Shown here: piece after piece, positions 4,153 through 31,100 of the stretch
Layout of the letters: every line of letters starts with the position of its first letter
How positions within the stretch are numbered: position 1 is the stretch's first letter
Notes under the pieces: model-generated
Seen by the model: the letters and a program-made list of their open reading frames with translations, nothing else
Database searches by the model: none
Told to the model about the DNA's origin: nothing
Made by a program: the position numbers and the translations under genes
NCBI RefSeq assembly: GCF_026151205.1
Contig: NC_087077.1
Span: 20,853,510-20,917,509, forward strand
DNA from: Bolinopsis microptera
Lineage: Eukaryota > Ctenophora > Tentaculata > Lobata > Bolinopsidae
Direction: 5' to 3'
Length of the DNA: 64,000 nt

Positions 4153-4524
4153 GGGGGGGGGGGGGGGGGGTACCAATGGCATAAAATGGCATAAATGGCA
4201 TACGTTTTATGGCATAATATAAATGGCATAATATTATGGCATAATATAAATGGAAATTTTTATTGGCCAATTCTCCATTTATGCATGAATTTAGGTCTTC
4301 ATATTTGACTTTAAAATTCGCAAATTATTATTAGTACTTGAATAAGAGACATGTTTCATGCTTTATAAACGCTTGGAATGATTGTTAAAGATTCATATGA
4401 CAAATAAAGAAAATAGAAATGTATTATATCAAAAATGGCATAAATGGCATACGTTTTATGGCATAAATGGAAATTTTTATTGGCCAATTCTCCATTATGC
4501 CATTTATGCCATTGGTACCCCCCC
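4153..4524. mobile_element. Non-autonomous element 1, G-run termini, TSD GCTAACT
   Basis: A 372-bp insertion begins with 18 G and ends with 7 C. The inner inverted ends read GGTACCAATGGCATAAA in both directions. A block of about 65 bp (ATGGCATAAATGGCATACG ... GGCCAATTCTCCATT) is present at both ends as a direct repeat. It is flanked by GCTAACT at 4146-4152 and again at 4525-4531. The uninterrupted site GCTAACTGCT occurs, inverted, in the right array near 20580, 27000 and 27595, giving natural empty sites. There is no coding capacity. The superfamily is not assigned. Confidence 0.85.
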
Positions 4525-4531
4525 GCTAACT

Positions 4532-4796
4532 GCTTACCTTCTCTGTGAAACTTAGGAAGTTGGATTGAAGACTGCAGATATTCCCTTAAAGTTGACATAC
4601 AATATATTTAAAAATTCAATGAAATTTTAAAATGTTTTTTTTTTGAAACGTGATCTCTTTGCTTAGGTTAATTTGTACGGTGAAAGTCACAAATCTTCAT
4701 AATACACATTTGGTGATGAAATTCTTTAAAAGCCTGTTTACACAAATTCTCAATACAGTATCTATATGTATTAGCGAAAAAGTTAGCAAATAAATC

Positions 4797-4797
<1 letters not shown>
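4532..4797. other. Spacer between two insertions, no supported gene
   Basis: The minus strand from 4598 reads MSTLREYLQSSIQLPKFHREG followed by a donor-like GTAAGC. No partner exon or family match is visible, so I do not call a gene. Confidence 0.4.
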
Positions 4798-4828
<31 letters not shown>

Positions 4829-5768
4829 ACCATATTAAAGTATATTAAAGTATATCCCCGGGTCAAAATCGGAAAAAATCCTACATTTTAATATATTTTA
4901 TATACCTACAATTAGAAGATTTATATTCTTCGTTAAGATTTACATGATGAACTATATTTTTCACTCAGATTCGCAAGATAAGCCTGTTTTAGGAATAGTA
5001 CATGAATTTCCATCCAGATTGGTCAAAAATTGGCTGAGCTATGAGCTTTAAAAAATATACCCATATTTGGGCATACGCTTTTGCCCAAATTCGCTTTTGC
5101 CCAAATTCGATAAAATTTCAATATGTTTTAATGAGACTAACTCTATGTGAAAGATATAACTCAGTGTTTGTTGAATATAGTGGATACTAAGTAAAAAGAC
5201 CTCCATGAACAAAATTGGGAAAATTGTACATAATTAATTGACAATATAACTTTATGTTATTTGCTTAAACTGTTTAGGATGCAACCTAATGTCATGATCT
5301 TTTTGAACTTATTAGCAATTAGACTGTTAGCTCGCTTCATAAGCATGTCATCTTCGTTCCAAAACTTTTTATGTCCTATGCATACAATCCTTGATAGTTG
5401 TCTTGATCTAGTATCTTTGTTTCACACAATAGAGCATAAGTTTTGTGGTTTATCCACTGGGCTTAGAGTTTGTGTTTAAGCTACCAAATTTTATTATTAT
5501 TATTTATAATATCTCGGTTCGGAATACTAGCCAAAATGACTTCATTAAAATTGAAATAACTCCATCAGTTTTCAATATTTTTTCAAGAACTTTTTGGAAT
5601 CGATTAAGAATTGCATTTCAAGCTTATTTTGGGCAACAATTTTTGATGTAGACCTCCGAGGAGATAAATATATATTAAAGTGTATTGTAGGTATATTAAA
5701 GTATATTAAAGTATATCCCCGGGTCAAAATCGGGAAAAATCCTACATTTTAATATACTTTAATATGGT

Positions 5769-5809
<41 letters not shown>
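4798..5809. mobile_element. Non-autonomous element 2, 29 G / 39 C termini, TSD AAATCT
   Basis: A 1,012-bp insertion starts with 29 consecutive G and ends with 39 consecutive C. After the G run both ends read CAACCATATTAAAGTATATT inward. A second block containing TATATCCCCGGGTCAAAATC is directly repeated near each end (about 4850 and 5711). AAATCT flanks the element at 4792-4797 and 5810-5815. Internal ORFs are short and AT-rich, and no transposase is seen. The architecture matches the elements at 4153 and 28389 although the sequences are unrelated. Confidence 0.83.
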
Positions 5810-5811
<2 letters not shown>

Positions 5812-5857
5812 ATCTACAAGTCTCTATCAATCTCCGCGGCTGATATCAGCTAAATTT

Positions 5858-7300
5858 CTATTGTTCAAGTTGTTCACCTGTCATTTCCCTCTTGATGCCG
5901 TATATTACACCGGTTGTAACCAATAGTGCGGTTTGCATCATAATTACAACTAAACCCGAACTTTCGTGATATGCATATTGAACAGCCACAGAAGCAATTA
6001 TACTGGCTAAGCTGTAGCAACTGTTCATTATCGAAGATGTAAATGATCTGACGGATGTTGGAAAATATTCGGAAGCAAGGACGAAGTTTAACCAGCCCAT
6101 TACGGCTAGTGTACCTCTGGTTATAAGGAGGACCGTCAACTTCAAAGCGGAAGGTATGCAGAAGTAAAGTGGGATGAAAACAAAAACTGGAATAAGGCTG
6201 GAGATAAAAAACAATTTTCTTCTCCCTATCTTATCAACGAGAAGCAGTCCTATGGCTACAGCAATTGGGTCAGCTAGTCCGATGACCCCAAGATCAAATA
6301 AAACAGAATTATCAAATGAGCAGGACTGGGAAGACTGTTTCTGTGTGATTTTCACCGTATGGCAAGGACCTTCGTCCATAAAGAGAGGAGCTGCATAAAT
6401 AAGACCCATATAAACTGACTGTCCCGTTAATGTTATGATCACAAGCTTCCAAAAATCTGATAGATACCCTGTTGTCCTCAAAATTTGATAACTTTGGTAA
6501 AAGGTTGTTATTTCCAGTTCCTCAGAATTCTTGTCCTGGGTAATTTCAACCTCCCCCAGTTCTTTAGTGCAGTTCAAGTTGGCTAGTGTTTTCAAAGTTT
6601 CTTGAGCATTTTCCAATTTACCTATCCGGACATCATGCCTGGGAGACTCTCTGATTATTAAGAGAAGGACTAAGATTGGTTAACAGAGAAGTGCAATGAT
6701 GATCAAATAACCCCGCCACCCATATGGTCCAAGCGTAAGATAAGCCAATGCACCGCTAAGTGCTGTCCCAATACCCCAACCAATTCCAACTGATGACATG
6801 CTGAGTGACCTGTATTTTATCGTTGGTATTTCTGCTGAATAGGTTGCCGCAGGACCAGCTCCAATGCCCTCACTTGCCCCAACAATGGCCCTGCAGATAA
6901 GTAACTGCCAAAGATTCCCAGCGAGCCCTGACAAGAGTCCTGCTGAAAGCATGGAGATGGTTGTGATGATTAATAGTTTCCTTCTTCCAAATCTATCGCC
7001 TAAATGAGATAGAAGGAAGCCGAATATTGTACAAGTAACCATACTGATAATTTGAAGTGCTGAAGTCCAGAAAGTTGACAGGCCCCACTCGCATTTCAAA
7101 ATCAAGCTTACTACTGACATTACAGCAACTTCGGCTCCTTCCATAAGCAAGAAGCAATATGGCCCTAAGCCGTACAAAACCGAACCAAATCCACATCCCA
7201 ATCGTTCTATAGCCTCTCCTATGGTAAGTGACTCTCTTGAAGACGGTTTCCCTTCAATTGCAGCTGTCAGCAGAGTTTTTTCGTCATTTTCCGATTCCAT
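5858..7300 (-). pseudogene. SVOP/SV2-like MFS transporter, one in-frame stop
   Basis: One continuous frame of 480 codons plus a terminal stop, without introns, begins at ATG 7300. It carries MFS features: the loop 2-3 motif GDRFGRRK at residues 101-108, the repeated motif VDKIGRRK near residue 355, and about twelve hydrophobic segments. CEWGLS after the first helix and RESPRHDV after helix 6 resemble the SVOP/SV2/organic-ion branch. Codon 207 is TAA (6682-6680), and the same frame resumes immediately with PILVLLLIIRESPR. A 15-nt GTTAAC...TTAG stretch spans the stop but is too short for a normal intron. This may be a nonsense allele, a young pseudogene, readthrough or a base error. It lies antisense between the degraded NUP155 exons (to 3228) and the exon at 9323, so it would sit inside an intron if the plus-strand NUP155 path is real. 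Lack of introns suggests retroposition. The substrate cannot be told. Confidence 0.85.
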
Positions 7301-7522
7301 TTTTTTCTGGGATAAAAGGGTTTACGATAACATAGTTACTGATCTAGGAATTTATTGATATTCGCCATAAAAAATAGTAATTTCAATTTTCCTCGCTAGT
7401 TTTTGAGATGGGGCGCTAGCAGGCTCGGTTGATTGCAGTGCCCAGCATCTTCCTTGGGATCTTCTAGGTGTTTACCTGCCTTAACTTCAATAATCAGGGT
7501 TCTGGCAATTATTTCTGTCCTG

Positions 7523-7557
7523 AACCAGCTGATGATCATAATGATCATCAGCTGGTT
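7523..7557. repeat. 35-bp near-perfect palindrome upstream of the transporter
   Basis: AACCAGCTGATGATCAT is followed by one A and then its exact reverse complement. The arms are 17 bp with a 1-base centre. It lies 223 bp upstream of the transporter ATG on that gene's promoter side. Function is unknown. Confidence 0.85.
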
Positions 7558-7619
7558 AGTTAATTACAAGTTACAATCGACAGGGAACTCAGAATTCAAA
7601 CCTGACGTTTCTATTTAGG

Positions 7620-9322
7620 ACTAATTCCCTCATATATTTAGCAGCGCCCAAGATGGCCGAATAAAGAGCAAGTTCTAGCAGAAGTCAAAGTATAGACTAC
7701 TTATTGAAGTTCGTTACCTCGATACTTCTTAGCTGACAATTTGTTTGCCTATAATATCGTGGTATGTTTTATTTGCCATCCCAGAGGAATAGAACCACGG
7801 CAATTAAAAATATATAATCAACAAAACTAACGAGCAGTTAAAACTTTATTATTCAAATAGTCACTCTCACTCACTCACACTCGCTGAGCAACGACACTTG
7901 CTCCACTTCTTTCAATGTGGACAATGAGTTGTGTGTGTATACTATGTGTTATATAATCTTATATACAGCTCATGTTATACAGCTCATGAAGGGGTGTCGA
8001 GTTCAGCTGGGCAAGCAAATAAAGGACGGGGTCTATATCGTCTTCTGAACTAAAGGTCTCAAAGTAGACGACTATACGGCAACTCATATCAAACTGGGCA
8101 GTCGCTACGACAAAATTTACTGGGCAAGTTTAACCGTGAAGACATGTTCTGCAACAAGTCCAAGAAACTCCATAATAAGCAGTGTGCTGGATCTTTGCAA
8201 CTCTGGTCAAGCAGATATACAGTTCTTATGCAGAGGCAGTATATAAGTGCGGTGGGTGCGGAATCGCATTATTGACATAATACACCTATACCTGCCGTCA
8301 TTCGTTCTACCGGTTAAAATCAAAGTTTTTCATGACATAACATTAAAACTATCGGAAATCGTCCCTGGAGCAGAAGTGAATGTTAGCAAACTAGAGCAGC
8401 TCTATGTAGAGGGATAGGCGATAGCCGCTGAACCCTTGTGTCTCAACATTCCCTCTTGTTTCCTTTGTTTCCAAAAAATATACATTATTTGAATATTATC
8501 TTTAAATGCACATACAATGTTTGTAAAAACAACAAATTCTCATCGTTAATGTGGAGATACAATGTTTGGAAAATTGTTTGCTGAATTTTGCTTTGAAACT
8601 GTACTTAAGATGTGTGGAATTGAACGTAGATTCGTGATATGTAAAAATCTCAATTTTGAAAAAATTGGACATGCGATGTTAGGTAATGTGAGCAGCGATA
8701 ATTGTATATATGTACGTATATTCTTTAACTTTAGTCTCAAGTTACAGTTTAGTTAAAATGCTCTAGAGTATTGAAGTTTCTTGAGCAAATATTAAAGAGT
8801 AGAGTATTAGATCACGGTGTTTTTTTCCTCCAAATTTGCCGCACATAAAATAATTGAGGCAGGTTCGCACTATTTGCATAATTTTACCGCACCTATATGT
8901 TGCCTCTGTAACTACCAGTAGTAACCAGGGTAACCAGGAGTCGGTTAGCTCGACCGTCATTAAGCTTGTTGTCGGAATCCTATTTAGACGTTTTATTGCC
9001 GGAAACGACAATTTTAAGAATTTTACCTGTACAGATGTACAGATAAGATAACCTAGCTCTAGCACAAACCAATATACTCAAACCCACGGATAACATACGT
9101 GGACATGCACAGACATCATGGATCACCTCCCTAATTCGATTCAACGGTTTTTATACATAATTTGTATTCCAAGGAATAGGTTGTTTTTAGCAAGACTGGT
9201 GATATTTACAGATATTTTGATATACTATTTCACCTAATTACTCATCTGATTACTATCAATTGTTCAGTATTTGCTGGTAAGTAAGTAATAAGTATCTGAC
9301 CTCTTAACTATTTAAATTTCAG
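7620..9322. other. Non-coding stretch before the NUP155 3' exons
   Basis: Only short AT-rich ORFs occur on either strand (for example 8546-8756 on both strands) and none resembles a known family. A TCACTC-rich patch is at 7860-7890. The stretch ends in the acceptor TTTAAATTTCAG at 9322. Confidence 0.5.
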
Positions 9323-11062: not shown

Positions 11063-12329
11063 GTGAGAACCAACAAAACGTAAAATGAGTTTTGTGCAAG
11101 GATTTTGTTTTATTGGGTCTTTTTGTGGTGTACCAGCCGCGGCTTTACTGAGGTTAGCGTCAAAATTAAGCAAAGCTTATACTAAAAACTTTGAAAAATT
11201 CATTCTTTGCCGTTCTTACTAAACAGGTATCCGCCTCACACCACGTGGATGACGGGCACACCCACGTGTAGGGACGTCACACCACGTGGAGTGACGTCAC
11301 AAGCCGACGTGGATGCTGAAAAAGACTACAAAGTTCAGACCTCCCCCGGCCCGTTCTTACTAACAGGTAGCCTCATTGTCCTCTGGCTCACTGTTACACA
11401 GTATCTAGCCTTCTACTTCCCACGACCATTCTAATTAAACCAATATTTCCCTGCTCAGCAACGTCTAGTCTATAACCCCCCACTTTACTAATCATACAAG
11501 TACTCCCGCAAAATGAAGGGTATTAATTTGTCCAGTGTGGTGCATCCCCGCTTTCTTTCTAGTTTCAAACTGGATGAAGACAGAACCCATTTCGGAATAA
11601 CTGTTCTAGAATCTAATCACTTTTTTCTAAAATATGCAAATAGTTTTAATCTTGCTAAGTCCGGTCCGCCGCTTGTTATTCGCGAGGTACCAGGTTTCGT
11701 TCCCAGCTGAGCTACCACCATGGGTGAGCGTCATGACTAAGGATTCGGAGTGGTCCACGCAGCCGAATTTTAGAGAATCGGGGTGTGAGGGTTACATAGG
11801 AGCTGCCCATTGCATAAAAGGTCTCGGGGCGAAGAAATGTATAATGAATCCATCGGCTTCCTGTTTATGGGCTGGTTACATTCGTGTAACAATGTTGGCT
11901 GTTGGAATGTCCGAAGTAAAATAAGGGTTAGATTTACTAGTTACTGAAACAGCTAAAAAGAGTAATGTTCCTCAAAGGCAAGACTTTCCATTATCCAGCT
12001 AAGGAGAGATATCCTCAGAAAAGGTGCTACTGTTCATATGCGTCCCGAAACGCTGTAAGAAATGAAAACAGGACGTCTAGAAGGTGTAATTACAATCCCT
12101 AACCATATTATTAGATTAATATATACCTGCCAGATGAAGATTTGATAGTGCGGGAGGGAAGTTTTTTACGTCAGCAAATACCCACCCTCTACAAACGCAC
12201 ACGGCACATTCGGGGAGAACCATCCCGTGAAACCCTATCTTTCTTGAGGAGAGCGCAGAGATTTACCTTTATACAGCACCCCAGTCAACAAGTGTACTTC
12301 ACTCGATTTGTCAACATATAGTGGAATTT

Positions 12330-12450
12330 ACAAGTGTACTTAACACATTTAACATATTTTAACAGATTTTAAAACATATTTAACATATTTTAACATATTT
12401 AAACATATTTTAAAACATATTTTAAACAATTTAACAATTTTAACCATATT
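12330..12450. repeat. AT-rich (TTTAACATAT)-like tandem repeat
   Basis: Degenerate repeats of about 10-13 bp built on TTTAACATATTTTAAAACAT, with no coding potential. They precede the TTTCAG acceptor-like site at 12499. Confidence 0.75.
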
Positions 12451-13700: not shown

Positions 13701-15559
13701 CGACTATGCCCCTTTTCTATCTGCAACGGGCCCTAAAGTTGTTTGATTTGAATCGGTCAGCAAATAATACAGAACTTATATAAAAGTTGGCGACAAAGAA
13801 TGGTGTTCGGCTGGCAAGTGGAATAACAAAAAGCTCAGGCTGGTTAGGACAGGCAACAATAAACAGACTTAACTGTACTAAGACTATGTGAGATTCTGAT
13901 AAGGGAAACCAGTAACATCCATGTTGGAAAACTTGGCTCTTACTCTGCCCATAAGTTGTTAAACGTATTTAACTTATTAGCTGACCTTGTTCCATGTTTT
14001 AAAAACAAAAGTTTTGACTCTGTAACACTAACACAGAACTAGCTTCGCTAGTCCTATATTCGCTCGCTTCTTCTCACTTGCATATTCAGGGAGCTTGAAA
14101 AGAGCGCCGCGCACAGGTATCGGCGACCAGGGAAACCATGCAGGACGCAAAGGATCGGAGAGGAATAACTAAAGAGTTTGTTAGCTTTCATTTTACATTC
14201 TCGCCGTATATTGTAAACTTTCTAGCTTGAAAAAGTACGTATTCATATTGTATATTACAACCCAATGTAACAAAACGAATGATAAATAGGGCCCGTCGGG
14301 GATATCATGGCTCGCTTAGAGGTTCCACATCCAGGATCTGGTAGTCCCTCATAATTCGCGGCCTCTATTATCGTCATCCCGAACACCTCTTTAAGAATTA
14401 AGGGATTGGCATGTGAAAATTTGCAGCCTTCCCGAAACTTGATAGGGTTAACGAAGTGTCGTTTACGTACACCTCAAGATCGGTACAGGGGCTGACCAGC
14501 CAGAACCCCATTGATGGTCTGAGGTCACGTGGGATTAATGACCCTGAGGTCACGTGACTACAGACGTCACCAGACCTTGTTTCACTGTTTCCCGCTCATT
14601 TGGACACGGTTGAGCTTGCATGCTTGTGAAATGTGTGTAATGTACAGCCTGTACTGTATTTATCTCCGATAAATGCCTAAAATATGTACAACAACGGATG
14701 TCAAAAAACTTCAAAAAAAAACGATATTTTCACTGGGGTGCGAGTCACAAAATATATTCTAGACATCTTTTTTAGATATCAATGTTTTATATTTGCAGTG
14801 CTAAGTTAGGTGTCATATATCGTTTAACTAGGTATTCAATTTGATCGCTCAATGTCCCCTAAGATGTGATCCTGATTCGAGCGTGCTAAATCACTCTACA
14901 CAGTCGATCTTCGAGATTATTCTAAAAGGGCCTCCGATGGTTGTAACCAACTTCAATCGAAGTATATGTCGGACGCCTGATTCCGAATCGACCCCCATAA
15001 CATAAGGTTAAAATGCTCTCCTGAAGAGATATTGGCGAAAAAAACTGTATCGATCACGTGATAAGACCGTATAAGTGCAGTTAGCCTAATTTCTCGTTAG
15101 GTTATGAGTTTCAGCAAATGTTTTTGTTTAACGATTGGTTTAGGGTTAGTGTTGGATCAGATTAGAGGGTTAGGAGTTTCGAAAAGTCGTCAGAACCACT
15201 AGAGAACGGGTTAAAAAAGTCACGGTGACAGTCGAGTGTAGAGTGATTAATCATCATCCAAGCGATTCAAATATTGATCCTTGCTAAAATTGTGCATTGT
15301 GGGTCTGTTAAAGGTCATTGCGTATGACCATGTGTAATGGTGTTATTCCACGTGCAATTTTAAAATCGGGATTTAAGTTCGTTTCATGGAAATTTTTATA
15401 AATCGGTAAAATGGAGTACGCATGAATTTGACAAAAGTCCCGTACTTTTGGTTATACATCGTGCAACACAAATTGGGTTCATGAACATGTATATAAAATT
15501 TGCCCCCTTTTCCCCCTACGAAGGGGTTGGGTGAGGGTAATTGGGCCCCAACCACCAAA

Positions 15560-16804
15560 AACCCCCCCCAGCCCCCTACCGAAGGGGTAGGGTGAGGCTA
15601 ATAATAGGCTCCCAACCACTCAATAACCACCAGCCCCCCTACCGAAGGGTAGGGTGAGGGCTAATAATAGGCTCCCAACCACTCAATAACCACCAGCCCC
15701 CTACCGAAGGGGTAGGGTGAGGGCTAATAATAGGCTCCCAACCACTCAATAACCACCAGCCCCTACCGAAGGGGTAGGGTGAGGGCTAATATAGGCTCCC
15801 AACCACTCAATAACCACCAGCCCCCTACCGAAGGGGTAGGGTGAGGGCTAATAATAGGCTCCCAACCACTCAATAACCACCAGCCCCCTACCGAAGGGGT
15901 AGGGTGAGGGCTAATAATAGGCTCCCAACCACTCAATAACCACCAGCCCCCTACCGAAGAGGTAGGGTAAGGGCTAATAATAGGCTCCCAACCACTCAAT
16001 AACCACCAGACCCCTACCGAAGGGGTAGGGTGAGGGCTAATAATAGGCTCCCAACCACTCAATAACCACCAGCCCCCTACCGAAGAGGTAGGGTAAGGGC
16101 TAATAATAGGCTCCCAACCACTCAATAACCACCAGACCCCTACCGAAGGGGTAGGGTGAGGGCTAATAATAGGCTCCACTCAATAACCACCAGCCCCCTA
16201 CCGAAGGGGTAGGGTGAGGGCTAATAATAGGCTCCCAACCACTCAATAACCACCAGACCCCTACCGAAGGGGTAGGGTGAGGGCTAATAATAGGCTCCCA
16301 ACCACTCAATAACCACCAGCCCCCTACCGAAGAGGTAGGGTGAGGGCTAATAATAGGCTCCCAACCACTCAATAACCACCAGCCCCCTACCGAAGAGGTA
16401 GGGTGAGGGCTAATAATAGGCTCCCAACCACTCAATAACCACCAGACCCCCTACCGAAGGGGTAGGGTGAGGGCTAATAATAGGCTCCCAACCACTCAAT
16501 AACCACCAGCCCCCTACCGAAGGGGTAGGGTGAGGGCTAATAATAGGCTCCCAACCACTCAATAACCACCAGACCCCTACCGAAGGGGTAGGGTGAGGGC
16601 TAATAATAGGCTCCCAACCACTCAATAACCACCAGCCCCCTACCGAAGAGGTAGGGTGAGGGCCAATAATAGGCTCCCAACCACTCAATAACCACCAGCC
16701 CCCTACCGAAGGGGTAGGGTGAGGGCTAATAATAGGCTCCCAACCACTCAATAACCACCAGCCCCCTACCGAAGGGGTAGGGTGAGGGCTAATAATAGGC
16801 TCCC
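15560..16804 (-). repeat. 63-bp minisatellite, segment 1
   Basis: Head-to-tail 63-bp units contain CCCAACCACTCAATAACC, ACCAGCCCCCTACCGAAGG and GGTAGGGTGAGGGCTAATAA. Each unit holds a 7-bp stem (CCCTACC / GGTAGGG) around a 5-base loop. As 63 is divisible by three and the frame lacks stops, the minus strand reads a 21-residue repeat (WEPIISPHPTPSVGG, WWLLSG). I regard that as a by-product. Variant units (AGACCCC, GAAGAGG, GGTAAGG) mark sub-blocks. Confidence 0.95.
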
Positions 16805-18955
16805 AGTAGGACATTCTCTTCCCCAATCTAGTCGATGTGATTTTGATATGGAGCTGGAGGACTCCTCGCCCTCCGAAATTGCTGAAATCATACATGATCT
16901 TAAGAACAAATCGACTTCAGATATGAATATACAGCCTCTTAAAAAGGTTTGCAATGTGCTGTCTCCAGTAGTTAATCACCTGATCTCACACTCCCTTCAC
17001 GAAGGAGTATTCCCCGAAAAGCTCAAACTTGCTAAGGTTATCCCACTCCATAAAGGAGGATCGCGCAGCGAAATTACAAACTACAGACCAATCTCACTTT
17101 TGTCCTGCTTCTCAAAGATATTCGAAAAAATAATGCATGCACGTTTAGTAAAGCACCTAAAATCACGTAATATTCTATATGCATCGCAATTTGGTTTTAG
17201 ATCGGGTCACAGTTGTGAACATGCGTTGCTTGAAGCTCAGTTTAACATACATAAAGCTCTAGAAAGGAAGCAAGTGTCAGCATTACTGCTTCTTGACTTC
17301 TCCAAGGCGTTTGACCTAGTAGACAGTGAGATACTGCTACATAAGCTGGAGCACTATGGTGTAAGAGGCCTTAGCTTATCCTGGTTTGAGTCTTATCTAA
17401 CTAACCGGAAACAGTATGTTCACGTCAACGGTTGCAGTTCAGAAAAAATGGGATTGGAACATGGAGTTCCTCAAGGGTCCATTCTTGGTCCTATATTGTT
17501 CATTATTTACATAAACGACCTTGCAAATGTAAGCGATATAGCCCATTATATTTTCTTCGCTGATGATGCAAACATCATCGTTTCTGCCGACACGTACACT
17601 GAACTGAACATGCGTGCAAACAGAGTATTAAATACTGTACAGACATGGGTTAAAAACAACGGTCTTAAACTTAATGTAGGAAAAACTAAATACATGATAT
17701 TCACTAACAGATTACCAGAGGATATAAATATTAGTATAGAAGGACAGCGACTAGTGAAAAGTGAACATGAACGATTTTTAGGTGTCATTATTGACTCAAA
17801 ACTTAGCTGGAGCCAGCACATTAAACAGTTAAAGACTAAAATATCCAGAAATGCAGGCGTAATGATGAAACTTAAAAGTTCCATTCCGAATAAAGCTCAA
17901 AAAATGCTATACAATAGTTTAATTCAATCTCACCTGTATTACTGCGCTACTGTTTGGGGTACTAAATCTTTAAATTCCATTCAGTCTTTATTCTCTGCTC
18001 AAAAGAAAGCTATTCGCGCCACTGATTCAGAATATCATAACTATTTTTACGACAAAGAAAAACGTAAACTACCATCTCACACAAAATCCATCTTCAACAA
18101 AATAGGAATTTTGGCTCTTCCTAATCTCATTGCTAAAAGCTGTCTAACTTTGATGCACAAGGTTTATATGGGAGTAGCACCATCGAGTATCTGTAGTATA
18201 TTTGAAAAATCACCGCTTAGACAAACGGAAAGGAGAAATCCAAAGTATTTTGAAATTAAGTTCAACAGATTACGGATCACCGATTATAGCATCTCTAACG
18301 TAGGACCACGATTATATAACAACACGATAAACGAAATAAACAAAATCCTTCCCTTCAACGTACCTAAGTTACAAGATAAGTTTATTAATGCATACAAGGA
18401 CAACATTGTACGTTACTTACTGGACAAACAAAAACTTGACCTAGAAAACCTTTCGTGGACGGAAAAGAACTTTGTCCTTTACAACTTTTAAACAAAATAT
18501 TAGCAAAATATAACAGCTGTAAGAATCCTAAACGTTAGTGCAGTCAAATAAATGAACTGCGATAATGCATTTGACAGTCAGTCACTGCAATTTATTCTGC
18601 AACTTATTTTTCAATTTTCACTGCCACACTTAGGCTTATCTTGCCTACACATTTAAAAAAAAACGAAATTCCTTGCGCACCGCGTACTAAAATTACTTGG
18701 ATTTCTACCGCTTTGATAAATGACTACATGAAGATGGGGAGTTAATATTTTTGATTTATATAATATAGATTATTCATTCTTTAGTGTAGATTAACTTTAT
18801 TTTTATATATTTTACCAAGTGTGAAGGATCAACCATACGTTATTGATATTTTTGAAATATTTAATGATACATTGATATAATAATAAATGATTGTAATATT
18901 TTTATTGAGGCACATGCCACCCCATCGCGGGTTTACTACTACTACTCAATAACCA
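16805..18955 (+). mobile_element. 5'-truncated non-LTR retrotransposon (CR1/jockey-like RT), copy 1
   Basis: The element starts abruptly inside a minisatellite unit (GGCTCCCA then GTAGGACATTC) with no endonuclease. It encodes reverse transcriptase to 18491: NYRPISLLSC, LLLDFSKAFDLVD, GVPQGSILGPILF and the catalytic FADDANI. The thumb-like region FLGVIIDSKLSW follows, then a cysteine-poor C-terminal part. Any ORF start upstream of 16805 lies in satellite. About 460 bp of AT-rich 3' UTR follows, ending in a short (CTA)n tail at about 18940-18950, where satellite resumes. Missing 5' sequence is typical of target-primed reverse transcription. The family differs from the LINEs at 41108 and 56569. 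Confidence 0.92.
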
Positions 18956-21900
18956 CCAGCCCCCTACCGAAGGGGTAGGGTGAGGGCTAATAATAGGCTC
19001 CCAACCACTCAATAACCACCAGCCCCCTACCGAAGGGGTAGGGTGAGGGCTAATAATAGGCTCCCAACCACTCAATAACCACCAGACCCCTACCGAAGGG
19101 GTAGGGTGAGGGCTAATAATAGGCTCCCAACCACTCAATAACCACCAGCCCCCTACCGAAGGGGTAGGGTGAGGGCTAATAATAGGCTCCCAACCACTCA
19201 ATAACCACCAGCCCCCTACCGAAGGGGTAGGGTGAGGGCTAATAATAGGCTCCCAACCACTCAATAACCACCAGCCCCCTACCGAAGGGGTAGGGTAAGG
19301 GCTAATAATAGGCTCCTAATAACCACCAGCCCCCTACCGAAGGGGTAGGGTGAGGGCTAATAATAGGCTCCCAACCACTCAATAACCACCAGCCCCCTAC
19401 CGAAGGGGTAGGGTGAGGGCTAATAATAGGCTCCACTCAATAACCACCAGCCCCCTACCGAAGGGGTAGGGTGAGGGCTAATAATAGGCTCCACTCAATA
19501 ACCACCAGCCCCCTACCGAAGGGGTAGGGTGAGGGCTAATAATAGGCTCCCAACCACTCAATAACCACCAGCCCCCTACCGAAGGGGTAGGGTGAGGGCT
19601 AATAATAGGCTCCCAACCACTCAATAACCACCAGCCCCCTACCGAAGGGGTAGGGTGAGGGCTAATAATAGGCTCCCAACCACTCAATAACCACCAGACC
19701 CCTACCGAAGGGGTAGGGTGAGGGCTAATAATAGGCTCCCAACCACTCAATAACCACCAGCCCCCTACCGAAGGGGTAGGGTGAGGGCTAATAATAGGCT
19801 CCCAACCACTCAATAACCACCAGCCCCCTACCGAAGGGGTAGGGTGAGGGCTAATAATAGGCTCCCAACCACTCAATAACCACCAGCCCCCTACCGAAGG
19901 GGTAGGGTGAGGGCTAATAATAGGCTCCCAACCACTCAATAACCACCAGCCCCCTACCGAAGGGGTAGGGTGAGGGCTAATAATAGGCTCCCAACCACTC
20001 AATAACCACCAGCCCCCTACCGAAGGGGTAGGGTGAGGGCTAATAATAGGCTCCCAACCACTCAATAACCACCAGCCCCCTACCGAAGGGGTAGGGTAAG
20101 GGCTAATAATAGGCTCCCAACCACTCAATAACCACCAGCCCCCTACCGAAGAGGTAGGGTGAGGGCTAATAATAGGCTCCCAACCACTCAATAACCACCA
20201 GCCCCCTACCGAAGGGGTAGGGTGAGGGCTAATAATAGGCTCCCAACCACTCAATAACCACCAGCCCCCTACCGAAGGGGTAGGGTGAGGGCTAATAATA
20301 GGCTCCCAACCACTCAATAACCACCAGCCCCCTACCGAAGGGGTAGGGTGAGGGCTAATAATAGGCTCCCAACCACTCAATAACCACCAGCCCCCTACCG
20401 AAGGGGTAGGGTAAGGGCTAATAATAGGCTCCTAGGACCCCACTCAATAACCACCAGCCCCCTACCGAAGGGGTAGGGTGAGGGCTAATAATAGGCTCCC
20501 AACCACTCAATAACCACCAGCCCCCTACCGAAGGGGTAGGGTAAGGGCTAATAATAGGCTCCTAGGACGAGCAGTTAGCAGACCGAACCCCAACCACTCA
20601 ATAACCACCAGCCCCCTACCGAAGGGGTAGGGTGAGGGCTAATAATAGGCTCCCAACCACTCAATAACCACCAGCCCCCTACCGAAGGGGTAGGGTGAGG
20701 GCTAATAATAGGCTCCCAACCACTCAATAACCACCAGCCCCCTACCGAAGGGGTAGGGTGAGGGCTAATAATAGGCTCCCAACCACTCAATAACCACCAG
20801 CCCCCTACCGAAGGGGTAGGGTGAGGGCTAATAATAGGCTCCCAACCACTCAATAACCACCAGCCCCCTACCGAAGGGGTAGGGTGAGGGCTAATAATAG
20901 GCTCCCAACCACTCAATAACCACCAGCCCCCTACCGAAGGGGTAGGGTGAGGGCTAATAATAGGCTCCCAACCACTCAATAACCACCAGCCCCCTACCGA
21001 AGGGGTAGGGTGAGGGCTAATAATAGGCTCCCAACCACTCAATAACCACCAGCCCCCTACCGAAGGGGTAGGGTGAGGGCTAATAATAGGCTCCCAACCA
21101 CTCAATAACCACCAGCCCCCTACCGAAGGGGTAGGGTGAGGGCTAATAATAGGCTCCCAACCACTCAATAACCACCAGCCCCCTACCGAAGGGGTAGGGT
21201 GAGGGCTAATAATAGGCTCCTAATAACCACCAGCCCCCTACCGAAGGGGTAGGGTGAGGGCTAATAATAGGCTCCCAACCACTCAATAACCACCAGCCCC
21301 CTACCGAAGGGGTAGGGTGAGGGCTAATAATAGGCTCCCAACCACTCAATAACCACCAGCCCCCTACCGAAGGGGTAGGGTGAGGGCTAATAATAGGCTC
21401 CCAACCACTCAATAACCACCAGCCCCCTACCGAAGGGGTAGGGTGAGGGCTAATAATAGGCTCCCAACCACTCAATAACCACCAGCCCCCTACCGAAGGG
21501 GTAGGGTGAGGGCTAATAATAGGCTCCCAACCACTCAATAACCACCAGCCCCCTACCGAAGGGGTAGGGTGAGGGCTAATAATAGGCTCCCAACCACTCA
21601 ATAACCACCAGCCCCCTACCGAAGGGGTAGGGTGAGGGCTAATAATAGGCTCCCAACCACTCAATAACCACCAGCCCCCTACCGAAGGGGTAGGGTGAGG
21701 GCTAATAATAGGCTCCCAACCACTCAATAACCACCAGACCCCTACCGAAGGGGTAGGGTGAGGGCTAATAATAGGCTCCCAACCACTCAATAACCACCAG
21801 CCCCCTACCGAAGGGGTAGGGTAAGGGCTAATAATAGGCTCCCAACCACTCAATAACCACCAGCCCCCTACCGAAGGGGTAGGGTGAGGGCTAATAATAG

Positions 21901-23228
21901 GCTCCTAGGACCCCACTCAATAACCACCAGCCCCCTACCGAAGGGGTAGGGTGAGGGCTAATAATAGGCTCCCAACCACTCAATAACCACCAGCCCCCTA
22001 CCGAAGGGGTAGGGTGAGGGCTAATAATAGGCTCCCAACCACTCAATAACCACCAGCCCCCTACCGAAGGGGTAGGGTGAGGGCTAATAATAGGCTCCCA
22101 ACCACTCAATAACCACCAGCCCCCTACCGAAGGGGTAGGGTGAGGGCTAATAATAGGCTCCCAACCACTCAATAACCACCAGCCCCCTACCGAAGGGGTA
22201 GGGTGAGGGCTAATAATAGGCTCCCAACCACTCAATAACCACCAGCCCCCTACCGAAGGGGTAGGGTGAGGGCTAATAATAGGCTCCCAACCACTCAATA
22301 ACCACCAGCCCCCTACCGAAGGGGTAGGGTGAGGGCTAATAATAGGCTCCCAACCACTCAATAACCACCAGCCCCCTACCGAAGAGGTAGGGTAAGGGCT
22401 AATAATAGGCTCCCAACCACTCAATAACCACCAGACCCCTACCGAAGGGGTAGGGTGAGGGCTAATAATAGGCTCCCAACCACTCAATAACCACCAGCCC
22501 CCTACCGAAGAGGTAGGGTAAGGGCTAATAATAGGCTCCCAACCACTCAATAACCACCAGACCCCTACCGAAGGGGTAGGGTGAGGGCTAATAATAGGCT
22601 CCACTCAATAACCACCAGCCCCCTACCGAAGGGGTAGGGTGAGGGCTAATAATAGGCTCCCAACCACTCAATAACCACCAGACCCCTACCGAAGGGGTAG
22701 GGTGAGGGCTAATAATAGGCTCCCAACCACTCAATAACCACCAGCCCCCTACCGAAGAGGTAGGGTGAGGGCTAATAATAGGCTCCCAACCACTCAATAA
22801 CCACCAGCCCCCTACCGAAGAGGTAGGGTGAGGGCTAATAATAGGCTCCCAACCACTCAATAACCACCAGACCCCTACCGAAGGGGTAGGGTGAGGGCTA
22901 ATAATAGGCTCCCAACCACTCAATAACCACCAGCCCCCTACCGAAGGGGTAGGGTGAGGGCTAATAATAGGCTCCCAACCACTCAATAACCACCAGACCC
23001 CTACCGAAGGGGTAGGGTGAGGGCTAATAATAGGCTCCCAACCACTCAATAACCACCAGCCCCCTACCGAAGAGGTAGGGTGAGGGCCAATAATAGGCTC
23101 CCAACCACTCAATAACCACCAGCCCCCTACCGAAGGGGTAGGGTGAGGGCTAATAATAGGCTCCCAACCACTCAATAACCACCAGCCCCCTACCGAAGGG
23201 GTAGGGTGAGGGCTAATAATAGGCTCCC
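18945..23228 (-). repeat. 63-bp minisatellite, segment 2
   Basis: Nearly identical 63-bp units fill this segment, broken by shortened joints (GGCTCCACTC at about 19430 and 19490, GGCTCCTAATAACC at about 19312 and 21218). CCTAGGA linkers occur near 20432, 20563 and 21906. These breaks cut the minus-strand 21-residue frame into several ORFs. No independent gene is present. Confidence 0.95.
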
Positions 23229-25379
23229 AGTAGGACATTCTCTTCCCCAATCTAGTCGATGTGATTTTGATATGGAGCTGGAGGACTCCTCGCCCTCCGA
23301 AATTGCTGAAATCATACATGATCTTAAGAACAAATCGACTTCAGATATGAATATACAGCCTCTTAAAAAGGTTTGCAATGTGCTGTCTCCAGTAGTTAAT
23401 CACCTGATCTCACACTCCCTTCACGAAGGAGTATTCCCCGAAAAGCTCAAACTTGCTAAGGTTATCCCACTCCATAAAGGAGGATCGCGCAGCGAAATTA
23501 CAAACTACAGACCAATCTCACTTTTGTCCTGCTTCTCAAAGATATTCGAAAAAATAATGCATGCACGTTTAGTAAAGCACCTAAAATCACGTAATATTCT
23601 ATATGCATCGCAATTTGGTTTTAGATCGGGTCACAGTTGTGAACATGCGTTGCTTGAAGCTCAGTTTAACATACATAAAGCTCTAGAAAGGAAGCAAGTG
23701 TCAGCATTACTGCTTCTTGACTTCTCCAAGGCGTTTGACCTAGTAGACAGTGAGATACTGCTACATAAGCTGGAGCACTATGGTGTAAGAGGCCTTAGCT
23801 TATCCTGGTTTGAGTCTTATCTAACTAACCGGAAACAGTATGTTCACGTCAACGGTTGCAGTTCAGAAAAAATGGGATTGGAACATGGAGTTCCTCAAGG
23901 GTCCATTCTTGGTCCTATATTGTTCATTATTTACATAAACGACCTTGCAAATGTAAGCGATATAGCCCATTATATTTTCTTCGCTGATGATGCAAACATC
24001 ATCGTTTCTGCCGACACGTACACTGAACTGAACATGCGTGCAAACAGAGTATTAAATACTGTACAGACATGGGTTAAAAACAACGGTCTTAAACTTAATG
24101 TAGGAAAAACTAAATACATGATATTCACTAACAGATTACCAGAGGATATAAATATTAGTATAGAAGGACAGCGACTAGTGAAAAGTGAACATGAACGATT
24201 TTTAGGTGTCATTATTGACTCAAAACTTAGCTGGAGCCAGCACATTAAACAGTTAAAGACTAAAATATCCAGAAATGCAGGCGTAATGATGAAACTTAAA
24301 AGTTCCATTCCGAATAAAGCTCAAAAAATGCTATACAATAGTTTAATTCAATCTCACCTGTATTACTGCGCTACTGTTTGGGGTACTAAATCTTTAAATT
24401 CCATTCAGTCTTTATTCTCTGCTCAAAAGAAAGCTATTCGCGCCACTGATTCAGAATATCATAACTATTTTTACGACAAAGAAAAACGTAAACTACCATC
24501 TCACACAAAATCCATCTTCAACAAAATAGGAATTTTGGCTCTTCCTAATCTCATTGCTAAAAGCTGTCTAACTTTGATGCACAAGGTTTATATGGGAGTA
24601 GCACCATCGAGTATCTGTAGTATATTTGAAAAATCACCGCTTAGACAAACGGAAAGGAGAAATCCAAAGTATTTTGAAATTAAGTTCAACAGATTACGGA
24701 TCACCGATTATAGCATCTCTAACGTAGGACCACGATTATATAACAACACGATAAACGAAATAAACAAAATCCTTCCCTTCAACGTACCTAAGTTACAAGA
24801 TAAGTTTATTAATGCATACAAGGACAACATTGTACGTTACTTACTGGACAAACAAAAACTTGACCTAGAAAACCTTTCGTGGACGGAAAAGAACTTTGTC
24901 CTTTACAACTTTTAAACAAAATATTAGCAAAATATAACAGCTGTAAGAATCCTAAACGTTAGTGCAGTCAAATAAATGAACTGCGATAATGCATTTGACA
25001 GTCAGTCACTGCAATTTATTCTGCAACTTATTTTTCAATTTTCACTGCCACACTTAGGCTTATCTTGCCTACACATTTAAAAAAAAACGAAATTCCTTGC
25101 GCACCGCGTACTAAAATTACTTGGATTTCTACCGCTTTGATAAATGACTACATGAAGATGGGGAGTTAATATTTTTGATTTATATAATATAGATTATTCA
25201 TTCTTTAGTGTAGATTAACTTTATTTTTATATATTTTACCAAGTGTGAAGGATCAACCATACGTTATTGATATTTTTGAAATATTTAATGATACATTGAT
25301 ATAATAATAAATGATTGTAATATTTTTATTGAGGCACATGCCACCCCATCGCGGGTTTACTACTACTACTCAATAACCA
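23229..25379 (+). mobile_element. 5'-truncated non-LTR retrotransposon, copy 2
   Basis: An apparently exact repeat of the copy at 16805, offset by 6,424 bp: same junction with the satellite, same RT frame to 24915, same 3' UTR and CTA tail. An identical satellite junction shows that it arose by segmental duplication, not by a second insertion. Confidence 0.93.
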
Positions 25380-27868
25380 CCAGCCCCCTACCGAAGGGGT
25401 AGGGTGAGGGCTAATAATAGGCTCCCAACCACTCAATAACCACCAGCCCCCTACCGAAGGGGTAGGGTGAGGGCTAATAATAGGCTCCCAACCACTCAAT
25501 AACCACCAGACCCCTACCGAAGGGGTAGGGTGAGGGCTAATAATAGGCTCCCAACCACTCAATAACCACCAGCCCCCTACCGAAGGGGTAGGGTGAGGGC
25601 TAATAATAGGCTCCCAACCACTCAATAACCACCAGCCCCCTACCGAAGGGGTAGGGTGAGGGCTAATAATAGGCTCCCAACCACTCAATAACCACCAGCC
25701 CCCTACCGAAGGGGTAGGGTAAGGGCTAATAATAGGCTCCTAATAACCACCAGCCCCCTACCGAAGGGGTAGGGTGAGGGCTAATAATAGGCTCCCAACC
25801 ACTCAATAACCACCAGCCCCCTACCGAAGGGGTAGGGTGAGGGCTAATAATAGGCTCCACTCAATAACCACCAGCCCCCTACCGAAGGGGTAGGGTGAGG
25901 GCTAATAATAGGCTCCACTCAATAACCACCAGCCCCCTACCGAAGGGGTAGGGTGAGGGCTAATAATAGGCTCCCAACCACTCAATAACCACCAGACCCC
26001 TACCGAAGGGGTAGGGTGAGGGCTAATAATAGGCTCCCAACCACTCAATAACCACCAGCCCCCTACCGAAGGGGTAGGGTGAGGGCTAATAATAGGCTCC
26101 CAACCACTCAATAACCACCAGACCCCTACCGAAGGGGTAGGGTGAGGGCTAATAATAGGCTCCCAACCACTCAATAACCACCAGCCCCCTACCGAAGGGG
26201 TAGGGTGAGGGCTAATAATAGGCTCCCAACCACTCAATAACCACCAGCCCCCTACCGAAGGGGTAGGGTGAGGGCTAATAATAGGCTCCCAACCACTCAA
26301 TAACCACCAGCCCCCTACCGAAGGGGTAGGGTGAGGGCTAATAATAGGCTCCCAACCACTCAATAACCACCAGCCCCCTACCGAAGGGGTAGGGTGAGGG
26401 CTAATAATAGGCTCCCAACCACTCAATAACCACCAGCCCCCTACCGAAGGGGTAGGGTGAGGGCTAATAATAGGCTCCCAACCACTCAATAACCACCAGC
26501 CCCCTACCGAAGGGGTAGGGTAAGGGCTAATAATAGGCTCCCAACCACTCAATAACCACCAGCCCCCTACCGAAGAGGTAGGGTGAGGGCTAATAATAGG
26601 CTCCCAACCACTCAATAACCACCAGCCCCCTACCGAAGGGGTAGGGTGAGGGCTAATAATAGGCTCCCAACCACTCAATAACCACCAGCCCCCTACCGAA
26701 GGGGTAGGGTGAGGGCTAATAATAGGCTCCCAACCACTCAATAACCACCAGCCCCCTACCGAAGGGGTAGGGTGAGGGCTAATAATAGGCTCCCAACCAC
26801 TCAATAACCACCAGCCCCCTACCGAAGGGGTAGGGTAAGGGCTAATAATAGGCTCCTAGGACCCCACTCAATAACCACCAGCCCCCTACCGAAGGGGTAG
26901 GGTGAGGGCTAATAATAGGCTCCCAACCACTCAATAACCACCAGCCCCCTACCGAAGGGGTAGGGTAAGGGCTAATAATAGGCTCCTAGGACGAGCAGTT
27001 AGCAGACCGAACCCCAACCACTCAATAACCACCAGCCCCCTACCGAAGGGGTAGGGTGAGGGCTAATAATAGGCTCCCAACCACTCAATAACCACCAGCC
27101 CCCTACCGAAGGGGTAGGGTGAGGGCTAATAATAGGCTCCCAACCACTCAATAACCACCAGCCCCCTACCGAAGGGGTAGGGTGAGGGCTAATAATAGGC
27201 TCCCAACCACTCAATAACCACCAGCCCCCTACCGAAGGGGTAGGGTGAGGGCTAATAATAGGCTCCTAATAACCACCAGCCCCCTACCGAAGGGGTAGGG
27301 TGAGGGCTAATAATAGGCTCCCAACCACTCAATAACCACCAGCCCCCTACCGAAGGGGTAGGGTGAGGGCTAATAATAGGCTCCCAACCACTCAATAACC
27401 ACCAGCCCCCTACCGAAGGGGTAGGGTGAGGGCTAATAATAGGCTCCCAACCACTCAATAACCACCAGCCCCCTACCGAAGGGGTAGGGTAAGGGCTAAT
27501 AATAGGCTCCTAGGACCCCACTCAATAACCACCAGCCCCCTACCGAAGGGGTAGGGTAAGGGCTAATAATAGGCTCCTAGGACGAGCAGTTAGCAGACCG
27601 AACCCCAACCACTCAATAACCACCAGCCCCCTACCGAAGGGGTAGGGTAAGGGCTAATAATAGGCTCCTAGGACCCCACTCAATAACCACCAGCCCCCTA
27701 CCGAAGGGGTAGGGTGAGGGCTAATAATAGGCTCCTAGGACCCCACTCAATAACCACCAGCCCCCTACCGAAGGGGTAGGGTGAGGGCTAATAATAGGCT
27801 CCTAGGACCCCACTCAATAACCACCAGCCCTCTACCGAAGGGGTAGGGTGAGGGCTAATAATAGGCTC
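25369..27868 (-). repeat. 63-bp minisatellite, segment 3
   Basis: This continues the array up to the unique sequence of the right duplication arm. The last five to six units (27480-27860) are joined by GGCTCCTAGGACCCCACTC, the same linker type seen in the left array. The array ends at CTCCTATGACGAGGATTC, which matches the left-arm boundary in reverse complement. Confidence 0.95.
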
Positions 27869-28197
27869 CTATGACGAGGATTCAGTCCGCCAATCAGTTT
27901 ACTTAGGAGGACGGTTAAAAAGACTTCGGATAACCTCTTACATTAGATTGGTTGTATTTCTCTCGTCTTACTGATCTTATTTATTATTAATCGGTTACGA
28001 AGATAGTAAAACATACGGAACCAATTCCATTTTCAAATATAACTAAATTAAATAACTAAATCCAGCAACTATGTAGTTAAATACAATGTGACAGGAGCAC
28101 ATGTGAAGGTCGGATTTACGAAGAACCTCTCATCATAACTATAAAATACAGGATATAGTTATTAAAGACCCCCTCCCCCGGCCCCTTAAAGACCAAC

Positions 28198-31100
28198 CTG
28201 GCACTGAGGGCATCTGTCAAGTTGGAGTCTCCGAAATATCTCTCCATAAGAGCGTTGATAAGAGCTACTGTTATCTGCTTACCACTTACAACTAAATCTC
28301 TGAACGTCGTTCTGCAGAGGTCTTCTTTGATATTCTGAGATTTTGAGCGTCAGAAAGTTGTAACCTTGTTTTAGAATTGTGTATTATTGGGGGGGGTGTC
28401 ATGTCCGTCTATGTCCGCCTATGTCCTGTCCTTTTTGGATTCTATGAGACAACGGACGTGTTTTTTGGGACATTGGCGGACACGGACGGACATTGGCGGA
28501 CTTGGACGGACATTGGCGGACTCTGACGGACATTGGCGGACTCGGACGGACATTGGCGGACCCGGACGGACATTGGCGGACTTGGATGGACATTGGTGGA
28601 CATTAGCGGACATTGGTGGACATTAGCGGACAAACATTTTGAGGACTGAAGAGTACTGAAGAGTACTGAAGAGTACTGAGGAGGATGGCTAAGAAGGATG
28701 GCTGAGGAGGATGGCTAAGGAGGATGACTGAGGAGGATGACTGAGGAGGATGACTGAGAGGGAGGAGAAGGATCAGGAAGACCCAGGAGGAGGAGGACCC
28801 AGAAGGAGGACCTAGGAGTAAGGAGGAGGAGGAGGAGAACTGAGGAGGATGACTCAGGAGGAGGAGGACTGAGGAGGAGGACTGAGAAGGAGGAGGACTG
28901 AGGAGGATGGCTGAGGAGGATGGCTGAGGAGGATGGCTGAGAGGGAGGAGGAGGAGGAAGAGGACTGAGGAGGAGGAGGAGAAGGACTGAGGAGGAGAAG
29001 GAGGACCCAGGAGGAGGAGGACCCAGGAGGAGGACCCAGGAAAAGGCCCCAGGAGGAGGAGGAGGACTGGGGAGGAGGAGAACTGTTGAGGACTGATGAG
29101 GAGGACTGAGGACGAGGAGGAGGAGTAGGAGGAGGACTGAGGAGGGGAGGAGGAAGAGGACTGGGGAGGATCAGGAAGACCCAGGAGGACCCAGGAGGAG
29201 GAGGAGGAGGAGGAGGAGGACCCAGGAGGAGGAGGAGGACTGAGGAGGACTGAGGAGGACCCAGGAGGACTGAGGAGGAGGACTGACGATGACTGAGAAG
29301 GAGGAGGACTGAGGAGTACTGAGGAGGATGGCTGAGGAGGATGGCTGGGGAGGATGGCTGAGGAGGATGACTGAGGAGGATGACTGAGAGGGAGGAGGAG
29401 GAGGACTCAGGAGGAGGACTCAGAAGGAAGAGGAGGACTCAGGAGGAGGACTCAGGAGGAGGACTCAGGAGGAGGACTTAGGAGAAATGAGAAGGAGGAC
29501 TGAGGAGAACTGAGGAGGAGGAGGAGGAGGAGGACTGAATAGGAGGAGGAGAAGGAGGGGGACTGGAAGAGGACCGGGGAGGAGGAGGACTGATGAGAAG
29601 GATGAGGAGGAGGACCCAGGAGGAGGAGGACTGAGGACCGAGGATGAAGAGGAGGAGGAGGACCCAGGAGGAGGAGGACTGAGGAGGAGGACTGAGGAGG
29701 ATGGCTGAGGAGGATGACTGAGAGGGAAGAGGAGGAGGAGGAGGAGGAGGAGGACTCAAGAGGAGGAGGAGGACTGAGAAGGAGGAGGAGGAGGACTGAA
29801 TTGGAGGAGGAGGAGGGGACTGGGGGAGGACTGAGGAGGAGGATGGAGGACTGAGGAGAAGGATGAGGAGGAGGACTGAGGAGGACTGAGGACTGAGGAG
29901 GAAGAGGAGGAGGATGAAGAGGAGGAGGAGAACCCAGGAGGAGGACCCAGGAGGAGGACTCAGGAGGAGGAGGAGGACTCAATGAAACAAGAAATTTCAA
30001 TGAAACAAGAAATTTAATTTTAGCACATTTTACAGAATAAAAAGATGTAAAACAATTCATAAAATATAATGCCCATTGGGGGGGGGGAGGAGAAGGACTG
30101 TTGAGGACTGATGAGGAGGACTGAGGACGAGGAGGAGGAGTAGGAGGAGGACTGAGGAGGGGAGGAGGAAGAGGACTGAGGAAGATCAGGAAGACCCAGG
30201 GGGAGGAGAAGGAAGAGTAGGAGGAGGAAGCATCTAAATGTTATTTCCATTTTTGTCCGTTTTTGTCCATTTTTTTCCGTTTTTGTCCGCTCTATTTTTT
30301 GTCCGTTTTGAAAATATAGGGTACCGAACGGACAAAAAACATGATCCCCCTATAACAGCAAAAATTGAACATTTTATTTAGCAATTTAGGTGTCCATTAA
30401 TGTCCGCCTATGTCCGCCTATGTCCGCCTATGTCCGCCTATGTCCGTCTATGTCCGCCTATGTCCGCCTATGTCCGCCTATGTCCGTCTATGTCCGCCTA
30501 TGTCCTGTCCTTTTTGGATTCTATGAGACAAGCGGACATAGACGGACGTGACACCCCCCCCATTATTATATTATTTTATGATGAGACAAAAAATAAGTGG
30601 TAGTTACTGCTCTGTACCCTTCAGCAGACTACTAGTCTGATCGCTGTACAAGGAGATTAGTCATTCATTCCGATATGATTATTTGAAATATTATCACCAG
30701 ACTGGTGAATGTATCAAAGTTGCATGTAAAATTTACTGATAAACCCCTGATATATATATATAGCTAAAAGTTTTAACTATCGATATAAGAAGTGCAGTGA
30801 TAAATTCATAAATTGCGCGAAACAAAATTTATAAATAAAATTTAGCAGTACGTTTAAATGCTTACAAATGTGCTTTACACAATACAATATGGCGCGGAGA
30901 TCGCGCGCAAAAAACTTTCTACAACTCCGTCGACTAGACAGGAATGGTTTAAGTCATTACATAATAATTGTGATGATGCAGCGATTAAATGGTCAATGAA
31001 ACTAAATTCATATTACAGTCCAGAAAAAGTAACTGAAATTTACCATTGGAAGTCTTTCCGCAACAAGATGAAACTGGTATTCGCAAAGTTCTCTCCACAA

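Follow-up and report, generated by a model that had tools for sequence, protein, structure and literature searches.

Non-autonomous transposons with G-run ends in the ctenophore Bolinopsis microptera: a common end design that most likely spans two or more transposition systems

We analyzed a 64,000-nucleotide stretch of the Bolinopsis microptera genome (hereafter the window; C6:20853510-20917509) for three elements, F1, F2, and F3, that open with a G run and close with a C run, and we searched the whole genome (264.65 Mb in 232 contigs) for their relatives. A first-pass annotation had proposed that these elements form an undescribed class served by a single transposase superfamily. Our analysis instead favors, with a probability of about 75%, a reading in which all three are non-autonomous cut-and-paste transposons, F1 being moved by an enzyme of the C/DxxH type, and F2 and F3 by one or more other enzymes. 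The proposed class most likely comprises at least two transposition systems with a common end design.

F1 occupies positions 4154..4524 of the window on the plus strand, carries TACCAATGGCATAA repeats between a G18 run and a C7 run, and is flanked by two copies of an 8-bp target-site duplication (TSD), GCTAACTG, at 4146..4153 (the last G of which doubles as the first G of the G run) and 4525..4532. F2 (4798..5809, plus strand; G29 and C39) lies between two copies of AAATCT, at 4792..4797 and 5810..5815, and the non-coding, GGA-rich F3 (28389..30561, plus strand; G8 and C8) lies between two copies of ATTATT, at 28383..28388 and 30562..30567. The terminal inverted repeats (TIRs) inside these runs match at 12/12, 12/12, and 11/12 bases in F1, F2, and F3, respectively. 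Of the 18 G-run/C-run pairs in the window (runs of at least 7, no more than 6 kb apart), 3 show inverted matching at 11/12 bases or better, whereas random 12-mers drawn from the window predict ∼0.0009 such cases and 20 Markov-simulated windows contained none. Each element further bears a subterminal block in direct orientation on the plus strand near both ends: 35 and 34 nt in F1 (4183..4217 and 4432-4466; 100% identity), 69 nt in F2 (4832..4900 and 5693-5761; 97%), and 58 nt in F3 (28401..28457 and 30480-30537; 98%). These blocks are quasi-palindromic, and the right-hand ends of F1, F2, and F3 fold far more stably than their shuffles (z of -4.7, -4.5, and -6.8), with the left-hand ends folding less strongly (z of -2.9, -0.5, and -2.4).

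Hence, the architecture described in the first-pass annotation, namely TIR insertions with G-run and C-run termini, a short inverted repeat inside them, and a direct block at both ends, was confirmed by measurement, and so were its statements that the elements have no sequence in common and no coding capacity. Pairwise blastn (7-base words, E of 0.1; best four matches per pair) revealed nothing common to them except the G runs of F1 and F2, with no match for F1-F3 or F2-F3, and the sole open reading frame (ORF) of at least 150 aa listed within the three elements (29452-30060; 202 aa) is a low-complexity GGA repeat. The 1012-bp span of F2 includes a separate, nested 271-bp repeat (5235..5505, plus strand), such that the element proper is ∼740 bp long; this repeat ends in (ATT)n, is flanked by a 5-bp duplication, ATAAT (5230-5234 and 5506-5510), has 39 further scored places, and is perhaps a short interspersed nuclear element. 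F3 is located in the right arm of an inverted repeat (1-3041 with 33715-30562; 3037-4125 with 28387-27268), the left arm of which contains the unoccupied counterpart of its insertion site (2941..3140, minus strand). When F3 and one TSD are removed, the flanks align across the site to the left arm with one mismatch and otherwise only single-base gaps; F3 is therefore a clean insertion.

F1, F2, and F3 are each high-copy families of this genome. A first look yielded 222, 1391, and 1455 candidates, respectively, of which 40 were scored per family, and the exact end patterns occur 210 (106+104), 236 (105+131), and 709 (369+340) times, versus 0 for all three in the reversed control. TSD lengths were scored allowing for TSD letters hidden inside the G and C runs, leaving out L002-L008 (overlapping copies of L001), L009, and L039 (the window itself); the sample comprised 27 left ends of F2, 23 of them with both ends, and 8 regions of F3, with 8 ends recognized and 3 copies with both ends. 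The TSD of F1 was 8 bp in 11/11 unambiguous copies, and its flanks matched over at least 6 bp in 28/30 copies versus 4/870 mismatched pairings. F2 showed a 6-bp TSD in 10/13 unambiguous copies (7, 5, and 4 bp in the remaining three), with flanking matches of at least 6 bp in 20/23 copies versus 3/506 mismatched pairings, and F3 had a TSD in 3/3 copies (one unambiguously 6 bp, two 6-7 bp) versus 0/6 mismatched pairings. The duplications of 6-7 bp assigned to all three elements by the first-pass annotation thus apply to F2 and F3 in the window (6 bp each), whereas that of F1 is 8 bp. Moreover, the targets of the unambiguous copies differ in composition, with G+C at 39 of 88 letters for F1 versus 5 of 60 for F2 (Fisher p of 1.2e-6). 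Differing TSD lengths had themselves been named as telling against a common class, and the split of TSD length by family, together with the F1/F2 difference in targets, argues against one transposase superfamily for all. The run length in F1 has a median of 7, seven Gs being the most frequent, and is uncorrelated between the two ends; the medians for F2 are 18 and 21.

The link between F1 and a candidate enzyme came from its long copies. The list of F1 ends (100 of the 210 places) contained plus/minus pairs 0.6 to 6 kb apart, in addition to ∼300-bp pairs of the miniature inverted-repeat transposable element (MITE) type. One long copy, L088 (C4:13387185-13390600; 3.4 kb), carries a decayed gene between F1 ends, and its left flank, ATATGAAC, is repeated after the C run as an 8-bp TSD. 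Positions 1-237 of F1 align to the left end of L088 and positions 246-328 to its right end, so that F1 looks like an internal deletion of L088. On its minus strand, L088 has two open stretches, one of 132 codons and one of 151. A genome search with the 132-aa piece returned 151 matches, of which 42 places are at least 75% identical and include nine with open frames of 344-349 codons; weaker matches are at 31-67%. The 42 close places, from which secondary pieces had been dropped, were compared with the positions of F1 ends, although some of them, C2:3943870 and C2:3946066, may belong to a single element. Among the 24 on C1-C6, 20 had an F1 end within 4 kb, compared with ∼0.006 expected per place, and conversely 23 of the 49 F1 ends that do not belong to short MITE pairs lay within 5 kb of the gene, versus 0/46 ends in MITE pairs. 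The first-pass annotation's suggestion to look for autonomous copies has therefore led to long elements with a transposase-like gene for F1; for F2 and F3, the analysis yielded no transposase. Widely spaced pairs of F3 ends (C1:309283-315304, C1:10054538-10059571, C1:10411439-10416382, and C2:6752768-6759298) and of F2 ends (C1:9805541-9807589) do occur, and these may mark longer copies of the two families.

A homologue of this gene, L089, was covered over 597 aa of a 766-codon frame and is 36% identical to L088 over 165 aa (E of 2e-24). Inspection of this single sequence by eye located D132 (in VSIDATAV), D269/D271 (ADDGD), a DPLH motif at 317, and E494 (SDLNEQ), that is, D, D, C/DxxH, and E in the order of the C/DxxH group (hAT, P, MuDR, Kolobok, and Dada). 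Neither Pfam nor NCBIfam gave the protein a match at E 1, and it has no relative in the PDB, where matches were at chance level. Relatives were also not detected in phages by tblastn, and none was confirmed in viral contigs or prokaryote genomes with six exact peptide patterns, which are insensitive. We regard the L089-type protein as probably being a C/DxxH-group DDE transposase. The candidate identities rejected for it include hAT and Merlin. A hAT enzyme is not indicated, as the F1-type protein lacks a match to the hAT dimerization domain (PF05699) at E 1, and the genome itself contains 150 hAT matches; likewise, Merlin was rejected, as no DDE_Tnp_IS1595 match was obtained at E 1, with 58 such matches in the genome.

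These observations suggest a mechanism in which F1, F2, and F3 would be MITE-type elements moved in trans, whose short copies retain the ends. F1 would be an internal-deletion derivative of a ∼3.2-3.4 kb element encoding the putative C/DxxH DDE transposase. The enzyme from long copies would bind repeats near both ends, presumably the 9-10 bp units beside the tip, cut at the tips, and insert through an 8-bp staggered cut. The mobility of F2 and F3 would depend on one or more further enzymes generating 6-bp duplications, in AT-rich targets in the case of F2. The G run at the tip probably represents the TIR's own terminal Gs, altered in length by replication slippage between jumps, rather than a hallmark of one superfamily; slippage after insertion would account for the spread of run lengths. 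As for the repeat units, self-match tests over shifts of 4-20 in nine copies of six families, the ends of which are not independent, gave a best shift of 9 or 10 at 18/18 ends (once or twice tied with 19), although only 7/18 ends passed a shuffle test at shift 10; units of 9-10 bp correspond to roughly one turn of the helix and could serve as repeated binding sites for a transposase.

Several observations weigh against this reading. Duplications of 6 bp and of 8 bp could, in principle, both come from related enzymes, and TSD length alone is thus no proof of two superfamilies. A TSD was absent in 2/30 copies of F1 and 1/23 copies of F2. Four of the 24 gene places lacked an exact F1 end at a distance of up to 4 kb, and 26 of the 49 F1 ends outside MITE pairs had no gene match within 5 kb. 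The L088 gene is decayed, L089 was covered in part and its element ends lie outside the sequence covered, its catalytic residues were assigned by eye, and its single-sequence AlphaFold model is poor (pLDDT of 35). Furthermore, the run lengths at the two ends of F2 copies are correlated (rho of 0.57; p of 0.004), a correlation not expected from simple independent slippage but one that copy age could produce.

The positions of F1, F2, and F3 copies were compared with those of known enzyme families. Forty copies each of F1, F2, and F3 were set against 61 of the 150 hAT, 49 of the 88 MULE (Mutator-like element), and 48 of the 58 Merlin places, yielding one F1-Merlin, one F2-hAT, and two F3-hAT pairs within 8 kb (0.12-0.15 expected per comparison) and no pair in the other six comparisons. 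In the closest of these (C8:3226379, hAT), the coordinates place the gene outside the F3 end. A second comparison of 100 of the 236 F2 ends and 100 of the 709 F3 ends with 95 of the 151 F1-type, 60 hAT, 37 MULE, and 28 Merlin places found the following within 6 kb: F2 with an F1-type fragment at one locus, F2 with a Merlin place once, and F3 with MULE places in three pairs spread over two loci. A rough reckoning puts these numbers near chance. No F1 end was present in the stretches examined around two hAT and seven MULE loci, though some element ends lie outside them, and no G-run ends were present in the stretch examined at two Merlin loci, whose outer ends may lie beyond it. A long ORF beside an F3 copy (L069) appeared by eye to be a reverse transcriptase rather than a transposase.

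The same end design recurs in additional families. F4 has an 8-bp TSD in two copies (L072:232-1086, GATGGCTG; L013, ATTTGAAA), F5 (L011:1137-2812) has one of 8-10 bp, and no TSD was found for F6 (L017:1113-2640), whereas an entire G-run element just 74 bp long (L036:1090-1163; G7 and C20) has a 6-bp TSD, ATGAAA. The word CCAATGG near the tip is common to F1, F5, and F6. In L013, an F1 copy (1494-1829) is inserted at the G-run tip of the F4 element (1830-2580); one G-run transposon has thus hit the end of another. Among the MULEs of this genome, L081 contains an intact-looking frame of 482 codons with FLYWCH and MULE domains, a combination that we take to be that of Phantom elements; it spans 2051 bp, has an 8-bp TSD, GTTATTTG, and ends in 16-17-bp terminal repeats with a palindromic block. 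Other MULE loci from the family search have the TSDs CTTACTTG (L085), TAATATTG (L083), and AGTTTTTAT (L082; one more base possible). The TIRs of L082 (907-3510) are arrays of a 15-bp unit with six Gs, GGGGGGTCAATTGTC, and arrays of this unit are also present at L078:2054-2542 and L024:2808-3007.

Could one superfamily that recognizes G runs nevertheless serve all of these families, with a TSD of 6 or 8 bp depending on the lineage? The recurrence of the design in F1-F3, F4, F5, and the 74-bp element, and the shift of 9 or 10 at all 18 ends tested, would fit such a superfamily, as would the F2 end at C5:6771143, which has a 62%-identical F1-type gene fragment 1.3 kb away; in addition, the accessible text of PMC10045372 describes discrete TSD lengths that vary within IS481EU. 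We nonetheless consider it unlikely, since TSD length and target composition split by family, the shuffle test was failed by most ends, and only 1 of the 100 F2 ends and 0 of the 100 F3 ends lay within 6 kb of the 95 F1-type places compared. Further, the MULEs of the same genome share a similar end design, and the design alone is thus no sign of common descent. That likeness also raises the question of whether F1 and the other 8-bp families are themselves derivatives of Phantom-like MULEs. MuDR/MULE, Phantom, and Foldback-like (Tm1) elements have tandem-repeat TIRs, 8-10 bp TSDs, and ends starting with G, and the local MULEs show TSDs of 8 bp (L081, L083, and L085) or 9-10 bp (L082), tandem repeats at G-starting ends, palindromic end blocks as in F1-F3 at two loci (L081 and L085), and G6 runs in the TIR repeats of L082. 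However, neither the gene segments of L088 nor the 597-aa homologue matched PF10551 at E 1, whereas three scanned MULE loci score well, and none of the 49 MULE places lay within 8 kb of the 40 F1 copies; we therefore judge a MULE origin of these families to be very unlikely. F2 and F3, for their part, differ from MULEs in their 6-bp TSDs.

Our leading guess for the F1-type protein is the P superfamily: F1 has subterminal inverted repeats and duplicates 8 bp, and in P transposase a bound GTP touches the G at the transposon tip. The proposal that the F1 enzyme is a divergent P transposase, for which the terminal G would matter through such a contact, is nevertheless tentative and on balance unlikely. 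The accessible part of PMC7776569 gives, as characters of P elements, 8-bp TSDs, subterminal inverted repeats, internal binding sites of 10 bp, and a GTP that touches the terminal base, and makes no mention of terminal G/C homopolymer runs such as those of F1. Members of this superfamily (Drosophila P, the zebrafish THAP9 elements, and Galileo) resemble F1 in combining an 8-bp TSD and TIRs with subterminal inverted repeats, and the P and zebrafish elements likewise have internally deleted non-autonomous copies, with the F1-type protein being a DxxH-type candidate. The DPLH...KKIRN stretch of L089 also looks P-like to us. On the other side, the protein matches nothing in Pfam, which includes P models, or beyond chance in the PDB, no THAP domain is present in the part of L089 covered, and the D-D spacing of 137 is long. 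It is distinctly unlikely, in our estimate, that the F1 gene instead founds an undescribed DxxH-type DDE superfamily, abundant in ctenophores and having variable G-run ends, whose diverged members would make the 6-bp cuts of the other families. As for the G and C runs and repeats being chance low-complexity sequence or assembly error, long homopolymers are prone to sequencing error, and the G-run/C-run pattern has 2594 matches per strand versus 1104 for the reversed pattern (overlapping matches counted); but the exact ends found 210, 236, and 709 times versus 0 reversed, the TSDs, and the empty site of F3 already refute this for the boundaries, if not for the exact run lengths, and leave it a negligible probability overall.

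IS3EU and Dada, which the first-pass annotation had raised without assigning the elements to them, are both excluded by their published definitions. IS3EU/GingerRoot resembles F2 and F3, but not F1, in its 6-bp TSD, whereas its termini are TA..TA rather than a G run and a C run. Dada belongs to the C/DxxH group and makes 6-7 bp TSDs, but no TIRs were found in it, in contrast with the 11-12/12 matches of F1-F3, and it inserts at fixed sites in small RNA genes, whereas the TSDs and flanks of F1-F3 vary between copies. Merlin is similar to F1 in its conserved terminal GG and 8-9 bp TSD, but differs in the protein and loci described above, and Kolobok duplicates TTAA, as opposed to the varied 8- and 6-bp TSDs found here.

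The remainder of the window is rich in other repeats. The large inverted repeat (1-4125 and 27268-33715; 86-92% identity) touches the left edge of the window and encloses ∼23 kb, and arrays of a 63-65 bp minisatellite lie within and between its arms (3553-4132, 15512-16805, 18944-23229, and 25368-27577). Two ORFs of 569 aa that are reverse transcriptase-like by eye (16782-18491 and 23206-24915) are identical in DNA sequence, lie 6.4 kb apart, and have minisatellite arrays around them. A LINE-like element is present in two copies (41897-48126 and 56642-60831; 96-97%), with reverse transcriptase/endonuclease-like ORFs and a PHD-like first ORF, as judged by eye. ORFs that by eye resemble transporters of the major-facilitator type (SV2/SLC22-like) adjoin F2 on the minus strand (5858-7300).

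Our literature search, which covered sources other than subscription journals and Repbase, with the top entries of long result lists, and is thus weak evidence of novelty, found no description of G-run-ended transposons or of comb-jelly transposon families; the accessible text of a study of ctenophore chromatin loops reports many transposable-element insertions in looping promoters and names no such family (PMC12221973). The F1 gene family, with 42 places at 75% identity or more and nine open frames, lies outside the coverage of Pfam and could be active. Homopolymer tips on TIR transposons pose the question of how the correct cleavage position is maintained when a transposase acts on a slippery G run. 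Finally, the presence in one genome of unlike transposons with tandem-repeat, palindromic ends calls for caution in classifying transposons by end design alone.

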